Source: Polyangiaceae bacterium (lineage in GTDB: Bacteria > Myxococcota_A > Polyangia > Polyangiales > Polyangiaceae). From it: a DNA stretch of 64,000 nucleotides. Positions 42,266 to 51,594 of this stretch are shown here, piece by piece. Location: NCBI GenBank assembly GCA_947475525.1, contig CANJMI010000018.1:1-64000 (forward strand), in the 5' to 3' direction. Every line of letters starts with the position of its first letter. Position 1 is the first letter of the stretch. The notes beneath the pieces were generated by a model. That model saw only the letters and a list, made by a program, of their open reading frames with translations, did no database searches and was not told the origin of the DNA. A program made the position numbers and the translations under genes.

Positions 42266-42341
42266 AGCGCGGTCGTTTCGTAGTCAAATCGCCGCGGCAG
42301 CGCAACGGATTTTTCGCGTGCGTGTGGTAAGCGAAAGCCCC

Positions 42342-44384
42342 ATGTCGAAGAAGAGCCTGCTCGTTTTGCTTGCGCTACCGGCCTTCGTCTCTGCCTGCAC
42401 GCCCTCGGCGGCGGCTCCTTTGATTGACGCGACCCATCCTACGAAGGACGCGCCGTCGGCCACGACCGTGCCCTTGAACCTACTCGCGCGCGCGGAGTTC
42501 AACCGGCTCGCCGTCGAGCTCGGCACGCCGATCTTTTGGGACAGCGACGCGAACGCGAACGGCGCCATCGATCCGAGTGAGCTCGCCGTGTTGTGGCTCG
42601 GCGTCGACCCCACGGACCGTACTCAGTGGGTCGAAGGAGGCGCGTTCACCAAGCGATTCTTCGACGACTATCAGCGCGTGCGGCAGTTGCGGGCTCACGA
42701 TGCAGGGCCGCTCGCTCCGACTCCGCAAGACGCCACGCGCGCCGCGCTCCTCAGGCGCGAGCTCGACCAAGGCCGCCCCTCGCTGATTCGCACGAGCCTC
42801 GTGTCGGCGACGCCTGCCGAGCGTGCACTCGTGCAGCACGTTCTCGCGGCGTCGCGTCACATCGAACGGATTTTTCACCAGCAAGTCGGCAGCGAGCCGT
42901 TGCGCGCACGCTTGCCCGCTGGCGAAGGACCCGAGCGAATGGTGTTCTACCGAAACCAGGGCCCCTGGTGCGTCGCGCCGGAAACCGAGGGAAATCCCGC
43001 ATGCAACGCACTTCCAGGCCAACCGAAGAAAGTGTCGGGCCTGTATCCAGAAGTTCTGCAAGCGAACGGCGCCTTCTGCGACGGCCTCAAAGCCGAGCCC
43101 AACGCAGCCGAGCTACGCAGTCCGTTTACAGTCGTCCGCGGGCTGCCTGGAAAGCTCACGGCAGTCCCCTACCACCTCGCTTACGCCGAACCGATGGCTG
43201 CCATCAGCGGCGAGCTGCGCGCAGCATCGGCCGGCCTCGGTGCCGACGAGGCGGCGCTGAAGTCGTACCTCGAGGCCGCGGCGAAGGCGTTCACCGACGA
43301 CAGTTGGGAGCAAGCCGACGAAGCCTGGGCGAAGATGAGCGTCAGCAACTCGAAGTGGTACCTGCGCATCGCCCCAGATGAGGTCTACTTCGAGCCGTGC
43401 AGCTTGAAAGCGGGCTTCCACACGAGCTTCGCGCGAATCAATCAAGACTCGCTCAGGTGGCAGAGTTTGCTCGAGCCCCTGAAAGCCGACATGGAGCGTG
43501 CTCTCGCCGCGGCGGCAGGTGCGCCTTACGCCGCGCGCGCGGTCTCCTTCCACCTGCCGGACTTCATCGACCTCGTTCTCAACGCCGGTGACTCACGCGA
43601 TCCGCACGGCGGCACGGTTGGGCAGAGCCTGCCAAACTGGGGGCCGGTCGCGAACGAAGGCCGCGGTCGCACGGTCGCGATGACGAACCTCGGAACCGAC
43701 GCCGACAGCCGCGCCGACCTCGAGAAGCTCGCGCGCTCGGTGCTCTGCACGGCAACGATGAGCGCGTTCACGTCGGACCCGGAGCCGCAGCTGATGGGCA
43801 CGGTGCTGCACGAAGCGACGCACAACCTCGGGCCCGCACACGAGTACCGCGTCGGGAACAAAACCGACCGCGAGATCTTCGGCGGTCCCCTCGCCAGCAT
43901 GCTGGAAGAACTGAAAGCGCAGACCGGGGCGCTCTACTTCACCGACTGGCTGGCTGCGCGCCACGCCATCGGGCCGAAGCTCGTCCAAGAGGCACATGTT
44001 CGAAGCATCACCTGGGCGTTTGGGCACATCTCGCGCGGAATGGCCGCGGCCGATGGGCAAGCGCGCCCGTACAGCCAGCTCGCGGCGATTCAAGTCGGGT
44101 GGTTGCTCAAGGACGGCGCGCTCGCGTGGCGCGCAACGGAGCCCGCGGCGAACGGCGAAGACCAAGGCTGCATGGAGATTCGCACCGACGCGTTTCCGAA
44201 AGCCATCGACGCTCTGATGAGACAAGCCGCGGGCATCAAATCCCGCGGGGATGTCGACGGCGCAAAGAAGCTCATCGCCGAGTTCGTCAACGTCACAGGC
44301 GACGCGCTATCGCTTCGTGAAACCCTGCAAAAACGTTGGCTTCGCGCTCCAAAGGCGAGCTACGTTTACGCGATCGACGGCTGA
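42342..44384 (+). CDS. Secreted M49-like (dipeptidyl peptidase III-type) metallopeptidase with EF-hand
   Basis: 680 aa from ATG at 42342. Lipoprotein signal (LLVLLALPAFVSAC). An EF-hand loop DANANGAIDPSE lies near residues 68-82. The centre resembles peptidase family M49: zinc site HEATH (His490-His494) in LHEATHNLGPAHEY, then a downstream Glu-rich helix MLEELKAQTGALYF matching the EE.KA..GLY helix of bacterial M49-like proteins. M49 enzymes normally have HExxxH; here the spacing is HExxH, as in some bacterial relatives. Likely cleaves small peptides outside the cytoplasm. Convergent with the PilZ gene 4 bp away. Confidence 0.75.
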   Translation: MSKKSLLVLLALPAFVSACTPSAAAPLIDATHPTKDAPSATTVPLNLLARAEFNRLAVELGTPIFWDSDANANGAIDPSELAVLWLGVDPTDRTQWVEGGAFTKRFFDDYQRVRQLRAHDAGPLAPTPQDATRAALLRRELDQGRPSLIRTSLVSATPAERALVQHVLAASRHIERIFHQQVGSEPLRARLPAGEGPERMVFYRNQGPWCVAPETEGNPACNALPGQPKKVSGLYPEVLQANGAFCDGLKAEPNAAELRSPFTVVRGLPGKLTAVPYHLAYAEPMAAISGELRAASAGLGADEAALKSYLEAAAKAFTDDSWEQADEAWAKMSVSNSKWYLRIAPDEVYFEPCSLKAGFHTSFARINQDSLRWQSLLEPLKADMERALAAAAGAPYAARAVSFHLPDFIDLVLNAGDSRDPHGGTVGQSLPNWGPVANEGRGRTVAMTNLGTDADSRADLEKLARSVLCTATMSAFTSDPEPQLMGTVLHEATHNLGPAHEYRVGNKTDREIFGGPLASMLEELKAQTGALYFTDWLAARHAIGPKLVQEAHVRSITWAFGHISRGMAAADGQARPYSQLAAIQVGWLLKDGALAWRATEPAANGEDQGCMEIRTDAFPKAIDALMRQAAGIKSRGDVDGAKKLIAEFVNVTGDALSLRETLQKRWLRAPKASYVYAIDG

Positions 44385-46010: not shown

Positions 46011-46134
46011 CCCGGTGCCGCCACGGCTCACGCGCCAGGGCAAGCAGACACGCCGCGACGCACTCGCACCCCGGAAAGGCGCCCGGTTTCGGCGCTGGAC
46101 TCGGCCGCGCGAAACCGCTATCCCTTCGCTATCC

Positions 46135-46211
46135 GCGCCTGTAGCTCAGCTGGATAGAGCGTCAGACTTCGAATCTGGGGGTCGGGGGTTCGAATCCCTC
46201 CGGGCGCGCCA
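46135..46211 (+). tRNA. tRNA-Arg (anticodon TCG), CCA encoded
   Basis: Acceptor GCGCCTG/CGGGCGC with discriminator G and encoded CCA (46209-46211). D-arm GCTCAGCTGGATAGAGC, anticodon stem TCAGA/TCTGG with loop CTTCGAA, T-arm GGGGG-TTCGAAT-CCCTC. It marks the left end of the gene-poor, remnant-rich stretch that follows. Confidence 0.96.
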
Positions 46212-46216
46212 AGCAA

Positions 46217-46438
46217 ATGACCGAGGATCCTGCGATCCCGACGCTTGAGGTCGTGGGCCGACGTGGGCAGAAGACGGCCCCCTGCGAAGACCTCGTGACG
46301 GAGGCGCGGAGGATCCTCCTCGACGTGGCCGGTGGCCGTGTGCCCGAGGTCGAGGCCACCCATCGACTGGCTCGCGGCTGGCTGGAGCGGCAGCGGGGCG
46401 GCGGTGGCGGTGGCGAGAACGTGCCACTCACTCCATGA
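46217..46438 (+). CDS. Possible small ORF after tRNA-Arg
   Basis: 73 aa, ATG 5 bp after the tRNA CCA. Reads MTEDPAIPTLEVVGRRGQKT...EVEATHRLARGWLERQR and ends in a Gly run. No ribosome binding site independent of the tRNA and no recognised family. It fills most of the 275-bp gap before the NERD remnant; otherwise nothing is seen there. Confidence 0.3.
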   Translation: MTEDPAIPTLEVVGRRGQKTAPCEDLVTEARRILLDVAGGRVPEVEATHRLARGWLERQRGGGGGGENVPLTP

Positions 46439-46486
46439 CGCGAATCGTGTGCTCACGTAGGCCGCGTCAGGTTAAAACCGTACACC

Positions 46487-47010
46487 GTGACCATCGTCGG
46501 CCTCTACCCTCGCGACGAACCTCGTCCAACATCGAGTGGGGCCGAGAGGCGGCTGTGGAAGGCGCTCAAGACCGGCCTGCCCGATGGCTGGGTCGCCTGG
46601 CACTCGATGAAGGTGCGCGCCCCCCTCGGGCAAGACGGTGAGAGCGACTTCGTGCTCGCGATCCCCGACCGCGGCCCGCTGGTGCTCGAGGTCAAAGGCG
46701 GCACGATCAAAGTCGACGACGGTCGCTGGTTCCAAGACGGGCGCACGACCTGCCCTGCTTGCGCGACCAACCACCTCGGGTCGAAGGCTGGATCGAAGCG
46801 TTGCACGACGTGTGGGGCGAGACGTGGCGCCCGAAGCTGTCGCTGGGCACGCGCACGCAGCTTGCCGAAGCGCGTCGCATCCAACTCGATGGTGAGCAAC
46901 TCGACGCGCTCGCCGTCATGGGCTTCGGCGGCCACGTGTTTCCCGGCCCGTGTAACACGTTGGATACAGATCGGCTTTTGCTTGCGGGGCCGCCGGTTTG
47001 GTTCGTGCAA
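46487..47010 (+). pseudogene. Remnant of a NERD-domain helicase gene
   Basis: The frame from GTG at 46487 encodes the start of a NERD (nuclease-related) domain: SSGAERRLWKALKTGLPDGW, ESDFVLAIPDRGPLVLEVKGG. Homology is lost after about 46745. From 46759 a different frame reads VEGWIEALHDVWGETWRPKLSLGTRTQLAEARRIQLDGEQLDAL (partial quote of a longer run), typical of the segment just before the helicase core in NERD-UvrD proteins. Then nothing helicase-like follows. So the gene has an internal deletion with frameshift and has lost its helicase part. Confidence 0.55.
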
Positions 47011-47020
47011 GACGTCCGCC

Positions 47021-48352
47021 ATGAACGTGAGAAGCGGCGTTTTCTTCGGAGTCCTCGCCGGAGCACTGGCGGCGGGCGAGACCGTTGCGTCGGAGGCGTT
47101 CGCGCTCGATTGCAGCACGCTCCCGAACCCTGTCTACATCCAGAACGGCGACACCCAAGAGCCGCTCTTGAAGGCGCTCGGGCAAAAGCTGCGGAACGCG
47201 CAAGCGAACCCCGTCACGCTCATCTACAAGAACGCCGGCTCGTGCACGAACATCGACGCGATGTACAAGGGCACGAAGCTCACGACGAACCCGTCGTACA
47301 TTCCTTCGCAGACGGAAGACCCGACCTGGGACTCCACGAAGCCGTCTCCACAGTGCACGATCTCGCCCAACGGGCAGGCGCTCGATCTCGCGATCTCCGC
47401 GCTCTTCGTCTCGAGCTGCGACCCGTCGAAGCCGCCCGCGAACATCGGCCTCTTCCAAGGCCCCGTGCAGCCCTACCTGTTCGTGGTGCCCGAGGCGAGC
47501 TCGCAGAAGGCGATCACGGCGGAAGAGGCGTACTTCACCTTCGGGTTCGGCGCGGCCGGCAACGTCGAGCCCTGGACCGACGAGTCGCTGCTCTTCATTC
47601 GTCCGACGACGAAGAGCACGCTGCTCACGATGGCCGCGTCGATCGGTGTGCCAGCCGCGAAGTGGAAGGGCGTCTCGAAGGACACCTCGAGCGCGGTCGT
47701 GACCTCGGTCGCGACTTCGCCGACGCCCGAGAAAACGCTCGGTATCCTCGGCGCGGAGCTCTACGACGCGCAGCGCGCCACGCTGAACGCGCTTGCGTTC
47801 CAGGCGTACAAGCAGAAGCACGCCTACTTCCCCGACTCGACGGCGACCTCGTTCGACAAGCGGAACGTGCGCGACGGCCACTACACGATCTGGTCGCCCA
47901 CGGTGTACCTCGCGCCCGTCGATGGAAACGGCACGATCGTGAACCCGCGCACGCGCTACGTCGTCGACCTGATCCTCTCGAAGACGGTGTCTCCTGCGCC
48001 CGACTTCGACCCGCTCGCTACCGTGATTGCGAAGGGTCTCGTGCCCGACTGCGCGATGAAGGTGACACGCTCCTTCGAGGCGGGCGACCTCTCCAACGAG
48101 GACGGCCTCTACGACCGCGACCCGAAGAAGCACGCGGACGCGAAGCTCATCTCGAAAATCACGCTCCGGGAGCTTCTCGCGAACATGCCCGAGGAGCTCA
48201 TCCTCGACCGCCAGCTCTTCTCGTGCTGGAAGGATTCACGCCACGTCGAGGAAGTTCAGATCGTGAACGGCTGCAAGCCCGGCAACCTCCTCCGCGCACT
48301 CGCGGGAGAGCACGTCGGCACCGTCATCACCAAGGAGTCCCGCCATGCATGA
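47021..48352 (+). CDS. Chimera: periplasmic binding protein fused to C-terminal part of a molybdenum-storage subunit
   Basis: 443 aa, ATG at 47021. Residues 1-~357 have a signal peptide (FFGVLAGALAAGETVASEAFA) and read like a PstS-type substrate-binding protein (PVYIQNGDTQEPLLKALGQ, ITAEEAYFTFGFG). After CAMKVTRSFEAGDLS the sequence changes abruptly (about 48092-48100) to NEDGLYDRDPKKHADAKLI...SRHVEEVQIVNG...LRALAGEHVGTVI. This last part aligns with the end of the amino-acid-kinase-fold storage protein encoded next. The ATP-binding and molybdate-binding parts of that subunit are missing. The join is in frame; a deletion between two neighbouring genes, or an assembly misjoin, would explain it. 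The stop overlaps the next start by 8 bp. Confidence 0.75.
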   Translation: MNVRSGVFFGVLAGALAAGETVASEAFALDCSTLPNPVYIQNGDTQEPLLKALGQKLRNAQANPVTLIYKNAGSCTNIDAMYKGTKLTTNPSYIPSQTEDPTWDSTKPSPQCTISPNGQALDLAISALFVSSCDPSKPPANIGLFQGPVQPYLFVVPEASSQKAITAEEAYFTFGFGAAGNVEPWTDESLLFIRPTTKSTLLTMAASIGVPAAKWKGVSKDTSSAVVTSVATSPTPEKTLGILGAELYDAQRATLNALAFQAYKQKHAYFPDSTATSFDKRNVRDGHYTIWSPTVYLAPVDGNGTIVNPRTRYVVDLILSKTVSPAPDFDPLATVIAKGLVPDCAMKVTRSFEAGDLSNEDGLYDRDPKKHADAKLISKITLRELLANMPEELILDRQLFSCWKDSRHVEEVQIVNGCKPGNLLRALAGEHVGTVITKESRHA

Positions 48353-49142
48353 GCGTAACGTCATCCCCAGTACCCTCGCGGACAGCCCGCTAACTGGCAA
48401 CGACCGAGTCAAGTACGAGGGCGTCGCGATGATGCCTAGCGTCAAGGTCGTGAAGATCGGCGGGCAGTCCATCATGGATCGCGGACGCAGCGCGCTGTTC
48501 CCGCTGATCGAGGAGATCGGTCGCATCAAAGACCAGCACCGCCTCCTGCTCACTGCGGGCGGCGGTACCCGTGCGCGTCACGTCTACTCAATCGCCTCCG
48601 ACCTCGAGCTTCCGACCGGGCTGCTCGCGGCACTCGGCGGCTACGTGCCGCGCCAGAACGCGCGCATGCTGCAGATGCTGATGGCCGAGCAGGGCGGCAT
48701 CTACATCATGACCGATGACTTCGAGAAGCTGCCGCTCTACTTCCGCCTCGGGTGCATCCCGATCATGACCGGCATGCCACCGTTCGGTTACTGGGAAAAG
48801 CCGTCGGCAGAGGGGCGCATCCCCGCGAACCGAACCGACGCAGGAACGTTCCTGTCGGCCGAAGCCCTCGGCTCAACGCGCGTCTGGTTCGCCAAAGACG
48901 AAGAGGGCCTCTACGAGGATGACCCGAAGAAGAACCCAGACGCGAAGCTCATCCGCCGCATCGGCGCAAAAGAGCTCATCGCCCGCGGACTCAAAGACCT
49001 CGTGATCGAGCGCTCCGTGCTCGAGTACCTGACGCGCGCCCGCTACGTGCGCGAGCTCCAAATCTTCAACGCCCTGGTGCCCGGCAACCTCACCCGTGCA
49101 CTCGCCGGCGAAGACGTCGGCACGATCATCTACAAGGACTGA
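48345..49142 (+). CDS. mosB: Molybdenum storage protein subunit (MosB-like)
   Basis: 265 aa; ATG with strong AAGGAG upstream. Amino-acid-kinase (UMP-kinase-like) fold: VKVVKIGGQSIMDRGR, GGGTRARHVYSIA, IPIMTGMPPFGYWEKP, RTDAGTFLSAEALG, FAKDEEGLYEDDPKK, and NLTRALAGEDVGTIIYKD. In Azotobacter an alpha3-beta3 cage built from MosA and MosB stores molybdate or tungstate as polyoxo clusters using ATP. The sequence looks closer to the beta subunit as I remember the pair. Followed after 3 bp by modA, so storage and import are one operon. Its partner subunit seems to survive only as the fragment fused to the previous gene. Confidence 0.88.
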   Translation: MHERNVIPSTLADSPLTGNDRVKYEGVAMMPSVKVVKIGGQSIMDRGRSALFPLIEEIGRIKDQHRLLLTAGGGTRARHVYSIASDLELPTGLLAALGGYVPRQNARMLQMLMAEQGGIYIMTDDFEKLPLYFRLGCIPIMTGMPPFGYWEKPSAEGRIPANRTDAGTFLSAEALGSTRVWFAKDEEGLYEDDPKKNPDAKLIRRIGAKELIARGLKDLVIERSVLEYLTRARYVRELQIFNALVPGNLTRALAGEDVGTIIYKD

Positions 49143-49145
49143 ACG

Positions 49146-49952
49146 ATGCGGCTTCACGGCGGCCCCTCCGCGCTTCGGCGGGTTGTCGCCCGGTGCCTCT
49201 TGGCGTTGGGCGTCCTCGGCGGCTTTCCGTCGTGCGGTCGAGGCCAAAACGACGGCAACCACGTCGAGGTGACGGTGGCCGCCGCGGCGAGCCTGCGTTC
49301 GGTGCTGCCCGAACTGATCGCCGCGTTCAACGCGGAACACGGTCGCCCGACGATCGCAACGGTCTACGGGGCATCCGGGGACTTGCGCAAGCGAGTTCAA
49401 GACGGCGCACCGATCGATGCGGTCCTCTTCGCCGCCTCCGACCCGGTCGACCAACTCATCAAGACGGGCCATGTCCTTGCCGACAGCCGGCGCGTCATCG
49501 CACACAACCGGTTGGTGCTCATTGGTCCGAAAGGAGGGCGCCGCATCGAGTGGAACTCGCTCGATGCGATCCCCGAAGGTGAGAAGCTCGCGATCGGGGA
49601 GCCCGAGGCTGTTCCCGCAGGTGCGTACGCGAAGAAAGCGCTTCAAGCGTTGGGCAAGTGGGACGCTCTCTCAGGGCGGATGGTCTTCGGAGGCGACGTC
49701 GCGGCAGTGCTTGCGTACGCTCGCCGAGGCGAGGTGATCGGTGCCATCGTCTATGCGACCGAGGTCGTCGGCATCGATGACGTGGTCGTGTTCGACGAAG
49801 CCACGGGCGCTTGGGCGCCGAAAGCCGATGTCGTCGTCGGTGCGGTCAAAGACGCGTCGCACGCACGACAGGCGTCAAGCTTCCTTGATTTTCTCTCAAG
49901 CCCGAAGGCCCGCGGTATTCTCAAGGCCCGCGGCTTCGAACTGGACGGCTGA
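49146..49952 (+). CDS. modA: Molybdate ABC transporter substrate-binding protein
   Basis: 268 aa. Export signal with possible lipobox (GVLGGFPSC). ModA features: TVAAAASLRSVLPELIAAF, YGASGDLRKRVQDGAPIDAVLFAA, EPEAVPAGAYAKKALQ, and a C-terminal SSFLDFLSSPKARGILKARGF. Binds molybdate or tungstate in the periplasm and delivers it to ModBC. Starts 3 bp after mosB. Confidence 0.95.
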   Translation: MRLHGGPSALRRVVARCLLALGVLGGFPSCGRGQNDGNHVEVTVAAAASLRSVLPELIAAFNAEHGRPTIATVYGASGDLRKRVQDGAPIDAVLFAASDPVDQLIKTGHVLADSRRVIAHNRLVLIGPKGGRRIEWNSLDAIPEGEKLAIGEPEAVPAGAYAKKALQALGKWDALSGRMVFGGDVAAVLAYARRGEVIGAIVYATEVVGIDDVVVFDEATGAWAPKADVVVGAVKDASHARQASSFLDFLSSPKARGILKARGFELDG

Positions 49953-49969
49953 GCCTCGATACGACCACG

Positions 49970-50638
49970 GTGGAAGATCCCTTTTTTCCGGTCTTTCTCT
50001 CGCTCCGTGTCGCCCTCACGGCGATGGTTTTCGTTGTGCCGGCGGGCATCGCGCTCGCTTGGTTGCAGGCGTCGCGCGCGCACCGCTTCCGCGGCTTCGT
50101 CGATGGGCTCATCCTCCTGCCCATGGTGCTGCCACCGAGTGTGATCGGCTTCTTTCTCGTCTGGCTTTTTGGGCGGCGCGGGCTCTTCGGGCACGCGCTC
50201 AACGGGCTGGGCGTGCGTCTCATCTTTACGCCTTGGGCGGCCGTGTTGGCGTCCGCGACCGTCGCCTTGCCCGTGCTCGTAAAGGCGGCACAGCCGGCGA
50301 TGGAAACCGTACCCCGTGAGCTCCTCGTCATTGGACGCTCGCTCGGTTTGGCGCCCGTTGAGGTGTTCTTTCGGGTGGTCCTTCGCGGAGCGTGGCGCGG
50401 TGTCGCAACCGGCATCGTCCTCGCGTTCGTGCGCGCGATCGGCGAGTTCGGAGCGACGCTGATGTTCGCCGGAAACATACCGGGTCGTACGAACACGATG
50501 ACCATCGAGATCTGGAGCGCGTACCAGGGCGGCGATGAGTCGCGTGCCTTGAGTTATGTCGTCGTGCTCACCGCGCTCGGGTTGGCGACGGTGTTCCTCT
50601 CGGCGCGCATTGCTCCTTCGCCGTCGAGGCCCCGATGA
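49970..50638 (+). CDS. modB: Molybdate ABC transporter permease
   Basis: 222 aa, GTG start, 17 bp after modA. Five or six membrane helices and the ABC permease EAA-like loop VPRELLVIGRSLGLAPVEVF followed by AFVRAIGEFGATLMFAGNIPG, the characteristic ModB/CysW signature. Works with ModA and ModC. Confidence 0.95.
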   Translation: MEDPFFPVFLSLRVALTAMVFVVPAGIALAWLQASRAHRFRGFVDGLILLPMVLPPSVIGFFLVWLFGRRGLFGHALNGLGVRLIFTPWAAVLASATVALPVLVKAAQPAMETVPRELLVIGRSLGLAPVEVFFRVVLRGAWRGVATGIVLAFVRAIGEFGATLMFAGNIPGRTNTMTIEIWSAYQGGDESRALSYVVVLTALGLATVFLSARIAPSPSRPR

Positions 50639-51327
50639 CCGCCGCGGTGGATGCACGATTTCGTGCTTCGGTCGGCGAGGGAGAGGGGGCCTTCTCGGTC
50701 GAGGTGGAGTTCACCCTAGAGCGCGGCGTCCTTGTGCTTTTCGGTCCGTCGGGCAGCGGAAAATCCCTGACGCTGCAGGCGATCGTGGGGGCCGCGCGCG
50801 CCGACCGCGGGAGCCTCGCGGTCCTCGGCCAGACGGTCTTCGACGTGGAGCGTGCCATTGACGTCCCATCGCATCGACGCCGGATTGGCTACGTTCCCCA
50901 GCATCACTCCCTGTTCCCATTCTGCAGTGTCTTCGAGAACGTGGTCTTCGGGTTGCCGCGTGCCCAGCGCCGTACAGTCTCTCGCGAGACACACGACCTC
51001 ATCGAGGAACTCGGCATCGGGCATCTCCGCAGCGCGATGCCCGGCACCCTCTCGGGCGGCGAGCGCCAGCGCGTTGCCCTCGCGCGGGCACTCGCAGTCG
51101 GGCCGCGCCTGCTGGTCCTGGACGAGCCCTTCGCCTCAATCGATCGGCAAGGGAAAACCGAGCTTCTTGGAATGTTGAAGGCGCTGCTTACCCGAAGGAA
51201 CTTGCCTGCGTTGCTCGTCACTCACGACCCGAGCGAGGCTCGCGCGGTCGGCGACACGGTCGTGACGTTCGAGCGCGGTCGCTCCCTCCGTCAGACTTCG
51301 GTAGATGCGCTCGCCGACGCGCCCTGA
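50635..51327 (+). CDS. modC: Molybdate ABC transporter ATP-binding protein, short form
   Basis: 230 aa, ATGA overlap with modB. Walker A GPSGSGKS (37-44), Q-loop YVPQHHSLFP, signature LSGGERQRVALARA, Walker B LLVLDEPFASID, H-loop LVTHD. Classical ModC is ~350 aa with a C-terminal TOBE/Mop domain that senses molybdate; that domain is absent. Import may thus lack this feedback, and no modE regulator is in the window. Confidence 0.93.
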   Translation: MTAAVDARFRASVGEGEGAFSVEVEFTLERGVLVLFGPSGSGKSLTLQAIVGAARADRGSLAVLGQTVFDVERAIDVPSHRRRIGYVPQHHSLFPFCSVFENVVFGLPRAQRRTVSRETHDLIEELGIGHLRSAMPGTLSGGERQRVALARALAVGPRLLVLDEPFASIDRQGKTELLGMLKALLTRRNLPALLVTHDPSEARAVGDTVVTFERGRSLRQTSVDALADAP

Positions 51328-51594
51328 CGATGGGCGCGATTCATCGACGTGGATTGCGCTGGTCCCCAATTTCCCTGGCCCTGCGCGACGCCCGATGACC
51401 ACCGCCTGAATGAGCTCGGCGCGCGCCTTCGGTGCCAGATCGCCGGGCGCCAGGAACAGCCCCTCGCCGGTCGCAAGGCCTGCCCACACGAGCGCCACGG
51501 AGAGCACAAGCGCAGCGGTCTTCTTTGCGCGGAGGCGAGTTGCGTTTTGGGGTGACGACGCCTCTTGCTCTGGGGCCTTGCGCGGGGCAGCCAC
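51136..51594 (-). CDS. Doubtful antisense ORF covering the 286-bp gap after modC
   Basis: The gap 51328-51613 has no plus-strand gene. On the minus strand a GTG at 51594 opens a 152-aa frame with a hydrophobic stretch (TAALVLSVALVWAGLATGEG), but it has no ribosome binding site and its last third runs antisense to modC. Reported mainly to describe the gap; more likely non-coding. Confidence 0.18.
   Translation of the reverse strand: MAAPRKAPEQEASSPQNATRLRAKKTAALVLSVALVWAGLATGEGLFLAPGDLAPKARAELIQAVVIGRRAGPGKLGTSAIHVDESRPSSGRVGERIYRSLTEGATALERHDRVADRASLARVVSDEQRRQVPSGKQRLQHSKKLGFPLPID

Follow-up and report, generated by a model that had tools for sequence, protein, structure and literature searches.

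The open reading frame at 47021-48352 on the + strand of the DNA analysed here (a 64,000-nucleotide stretch of a Polyangiaceae genome, hereafter the window) raises the question of how a gene that begins as a secreted binding protein comes to end as a molybdenum-storage subunit, and of whether its product is a new protein or the remnant of lost DNA. The frame encodes 443 aa, is free of stops throughout and ends in TGA. A binding-protein N-terminal part followed in frame by a MosA-type tail of ~85 residues had been predicted from the letters of the sequence, and both the frame and the two homologies were confirmed as described. At the DNA level the two homologies abut within ~3 bp, at 48093-48096. 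In blastn comparisons, the binding-protein-side homology stops at 48093 against three Polyangium loci (L045, L046 and L049) and at 48094 against the genome G013, and homology to the mosA-mosB-modABC region of the congeners G001 (L032) and G003 (L033) extends from 48096 rightward. The junction (48092..48096, + strand) leaves room for possible microhomology of at most ~2 bp or for a tiny filler, and falls at S358/N359 in the protein. The exact junction sequence had no match in viral contigs, and an AlphaFold model of the chimera, built from a shallow alignment, had a mean pLDDT of 40.

The N-terminal part (residues 1-358; 47021..48094, + strand) corresponds to a secreted PBP-like binding protein. 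Residues 2-358 share 76-80% identity with binding proteins of Polyangium sp. (L045, L046 and L049), with more distant matches elsewhere in the family; the congeners have no close copy, and the close relatives of this protein are those of Polyangium. The Polyangium proteins run on into LYTPAEPCGCFYES...CRHGFCEAK, whereas the fusion ORF does not, and it lacks the conserved Cys-rich C-terminal ~45 aa. This Cys-rich end (PCGCYFE...C..C...CRxGYCE, with small variations) is present in 13 of 13 other aligned binding proteins and is missing only here. Searches with complete binding proteins did not recover the lost C-terminus elsewhere in the genome, which is 98.9% complete. By inspection, the fusion ORF has a signal-peptide-like N-terminus. 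Pfam returned no match for its binding-protein part, PBP_like_2 matched 1 of 14 binding-protein members (E 1.5e-5), and the comparison with a PstS chain gave an E of 0.28, so that profile support for the predicted PstS-like identity is weak. Among the Polyangium loci, the binding-protein frame of Polyangium sp. y55x31 (L046, 5980-7434) lacks its sisters' stop and continues beyond the Cys-rich end, and in Polyangium sp. 15x6 the next ORF after the binding-protein gene (L045, 7423-8757) appears, from inspection alone, to be porin-like and of the outer-membrane type.

The remainder of the fusion ORF is the C-terminal 85 codons of a mosA-type gene (48095..48352, + strand), in frame to the stop TGA, and the encoded tail (residues 359-443) is ~77-78% identical to the MosA-type proteins of congeners. 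MosA of G001 has 280 aa, of which the fusion retains residue 196 onward; the N-terminal 195 residues (~70% of the gene) are lost, and searches with complete proteins found them nowhere else in the 98.9%-complete genome. Against PDB chains of the Azotobacter-type storage protein MoSto, the tail matches beta (E 1e-16) and alpha (E 1.6e-10) from query residue 357/358. It aligns to beta-chain residues 188-267 of A. vinelandii MosA/MosB (PDB 2ogx, 6gu5 and 4f6t), but the fusion lacks the first ~195 residues, including most of the amino-acid-kinase domain. On the AA_kinase profile it covers positions 172-202 of 234 only, with a score below the cut-off, and the complete amino-acid-kinase fold of a storage subunit is absent from the fusion ORF. 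Judged from these alignments, MosA is lost as a complete nucleotide-binding subunit. The next gene, which had been called an intact homologue of the same family, proved to be just that: the mosB-type gene (48345..49142, + strand, 265 aa) aligns over residues 28-262 of 265 to the MoSto beta chain at E 1.7e-69, as a full-length homologue. It is followed on the + strand by modA, for a molybdate-binding protein (49146..49952), modB, for an ABC permease (49970..50638), and modC, for an ABC ATPase (50635..51327). While the A. vinelandii storage protein is built from alpha plus beta, both storage paralogues in this genome are nearer to the beta than to the alpha subunit, and "MosA" is therefore a positional name here.

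The original prediction had allowed that the fusion might be conserved in many genomes, as an old functional protein would be. It was found in 0 of 107 other Polyangiaceae family genomes and in 0 of 58 relatives sampled across the family and order, and an old functional fusion was rejected on these counts. The MosA part was strongly matched in 25 of the 107 family genomes, and in 25 of 25 the best match starts at the junction and never crosses it. A mosB gene accompanies the mosA-type gene in all 25, with two matches in 24 genomes and, in G095, a mosB that was recognised in translated frames and runs off the contig end. Neighbourhoods of mosA were surveyed at 16 loci, which include three overlapping pairs (L071/L032, L072/L033 and L079/L034) and many of which show ~1.5 kb upstream only. 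At the 13 distinct mosA places these represent, in 13 genomes, no binding-protein gene adjoins mosA, and G013 and G023 have the two genes far from each other, on separate contigs or at a distance of megabases. The predicted ancestral order of binding protein, mosA, mosB and modABC was thus sought in relatives and found at none of the 13 places. Two congeners, G002 and G004, both with incomplete genomes, carry modABC with no mosAB in front of it, which suggests that the genus can do without mosAB, and loss of MosA is probably tolerable there, as far as these gene arrangements indicate.

The surroundings of the fusion ORF carry further cut genes. Up to 46401, gene order in the window follows that of the congeners, through an epimerase gene and tRNA-Arg(TCG) (46135..46211, + strand), which is the last gene landmark held in common with them on the left side. 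Farther left, between tRNA-Lys and the epimerase gene, the window has a 688-aa gene (42318-44384) that is missing from the corresponding position of G001 but has a match in G002. After the tRNA come the first ~50 codons of a small gene (46253..46402, + strand) that also follows the tRNA in G003 and G004, with homology ending at 46401/46402. Next is an N-terminal fragment of a NERD-helicase-type gene (46487..46747, + strand), and then a second fragment of it (46789..46905, + strand) in another frame, with ~88 residues skipped and the C-terminal helicase part absent. On the far side of modC lies an N-terminal fragment (51346..51534, - strand) of the gene located after modC in G003, with ~65 residues left and ~250 aa missing. 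Genes are cut on both sides of mosB-modABC, which therefore stands as an intact block between truncated genes. Read from its homologies, the interval 46401-48096 is pieced together from truncated genes next to tRNA-Arg and forms a decayed junction zone. The tRNA-Arg with ~190 bp of flank (46134-46401) is 98% identical over 268 bp to G004, while genes elsewhere are ~70% alike, and contig C12 of the same genome (179738-179853) carries a copy of the 3' half of the tRNA with ~75 bp of flank. In these features the tRNA-Arg flank looks like the attachment site of an integrative or mobile element. An Rfam scan returned tRNAs only.

The tail itself bears on the age of the event. Over 82 codons, its dN is 0.15-0.16 against congeners, compared with 0.14 between congeners, and relative-rate counts are 6:4 and 7:4. 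These values give no sign of long relaxation and would fit either a recent event or continued constraint, a recent event being the simplest reading of the divergence.

Given these observations, we think it probable that the fusion ORF is a recent, lineage-specific scar, left when illegitimate recombination acted on a variable zone next to tRNA-Arg. Chromosomal deletions are known to leave chimeric ORFs as a general kind, and the present one resembles these in joining two truncated, unrelated genes in one frame, in one lineage, with gene fragments nearby; it differs in that it is in frame and keeps the translational-coupling signal of the downstream gene. Because no relative searched has the fusion, the chimera most likely arose by accidental loss of DNA and not as a new protein design. 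The small ORF ending at 46402, the NERD gene and the gene after modC, all likewise truncated, support a scar, and the open frame across the join, the unrelaxed divergence of the tail, the failure to find the ancestral arrangement and a sigma-70 consensus scan that showed no promoter-like site upstream count against it. The prediction of a deletion accordingly survives in part: the end of the binding protein and ~70% of the first storage gene have been lost, leaving an in-frame chimera in this genome only, but a single simple deletion from the binding protein-mosA-mosB-modABC order is not supported and was set aside in that form, the order being absent from the loci examined. Several illegitimate events would be needed to account for the mosaic of several truncated genes that flanks the fusion at tRNA-Arg. 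Starting from the observed join, the missing parts and the absence of the fusion in relatives, we infer a mechanism and an order of events in which illegitimate recombination would have joined the binding-protein gene, cut ~45 codons before its end, to about codon 196 of mosA, with the frame kept across the join by chance or by selection.

We also weighed other explanations for this arrangement. One that overlaps with recombination at the tRNA, differing only in the order of events, so that our confidence in the two also overlaps, is insertion or translocation: cargo of a tRNA-Arg element (the NERD fragments and the binding protein) would have come to lie against a mosA truncated either beforehand or by the insertion itself. 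The attachment-site-like flank, with its 98% identity over 268 bp and the half-tRNA copy on C12, and the close relatives of the binding protein in Polyangium, with none in the congeners, speak for such a course, but neither a recognisable integrase in the interval nor a right-hand attachment site came to light, and we regard it as a tentative and rather unlikely alternative. More doubtful is an assembly misjoin, in which gene ends were wrongly connected and the true genome has complete genes. There is one assembly only, with no second genome of the species among those compared, and several truncated genes lie close together, as might be expected of an error. Nevertheless, the longest exact word common to the binding-protein part and 48096-51400 is 13 bp and lies 3 kb off the join; with almost no sequence in common at the join, k-mer or overlap assembly would not be expected to connect the two parts. 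Moreover, the missing pieces are on no other contig of the 98.9%-complete genome and the outer flanks on either side match the same genus, which makes a misjoin improbable.

The original prediction had also offered a functional alternative, a new exported protein, in which the kinase-fold C-terminal fragment would replace the Cys-rich tail as a module for folding, binding or oligomerisation. The open frame, the conservative substitutions in the tail and the signal-peptide-like N-terminus would all suit this idea, and nothing positive emerged for it beyond the open frame and the unrelaxed tail substitutions. Set against these are its occurrence in one genome only, the loss of a Cys-rich end that 13 of 13 compared relatives keep, a fragment confined to so short a part of the AA_kinase profile, and the other gene fragments all around, and we consider such a protein very unlikely. 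Least probable of all, and put forward as little more than speculation, is that the chimera is a working exported protein with the MosA fragment in place of the Cys-rich tail, while a MosB homomer alone stores Mo under a new promoter and a chimeric leader.

Whatever the order of events behind the proposed scar, its consequences for storage can be considered in light of the A. vinelandii protein, an ATP-binding, Mo-storing (alpha-beta)3 hexamer of the cytoplasm, with metal loading requiring ATP (PMC6448029). Because that protein is an (alpha-beta)3 assembly with ATP-dependent metal loading, the chimera should not replace MosA, and from what is known of the family the usual two-subunit storage protein is not expected to assemble in its familiar form. 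Export of the chimera by way of the binding protein's signal peptide is probable, its signal-peptide-like N-terminus argues against a role in a cytoplasmic storage hexamer, and it would have no storage function.

The 3' end of mosA, on the other hand, is also part of the start of mosB. A Shine-Dalgarno-like AAGGAG (48332-48337, + strand) lies in the last mosA codons, and the mosB start overlaps the mosA stop by 8 bp (ATGCATGA; 48345-48352, + strand), both as in congeners. G001, G003, G013 and several further relatives share these two conserved elements, and the fusion retains both. As the MosA tail carries them, the chimera has probably persisted as a translated leader of mosB-modABC, and on sequence grounds this is probably its simplest role. 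Selection may keep this DNA for the ribosome-binding site and overlapping start codon of mosB that lie in the mosA 3' end, and an in-frame chimera would still bring ribosomes to mosB. The promoter of the binding-protein gene may now drive mosB-modABC; a scan for the sigma-70 consensus alone found no promoter-like site upstream of the fusion ORF.

For annotation the locus is a trap, as automated pipelines may name the fusion ORF after either of its halves, and the genome may then be scored as storing molybdenum through MosAB although the MosA-type subunit is lost. For biology it offers a natural case in which to ask if MosB can function in the absence of MosA, and if a need to keep translational coupling to the next gene shapes a deletion scar.
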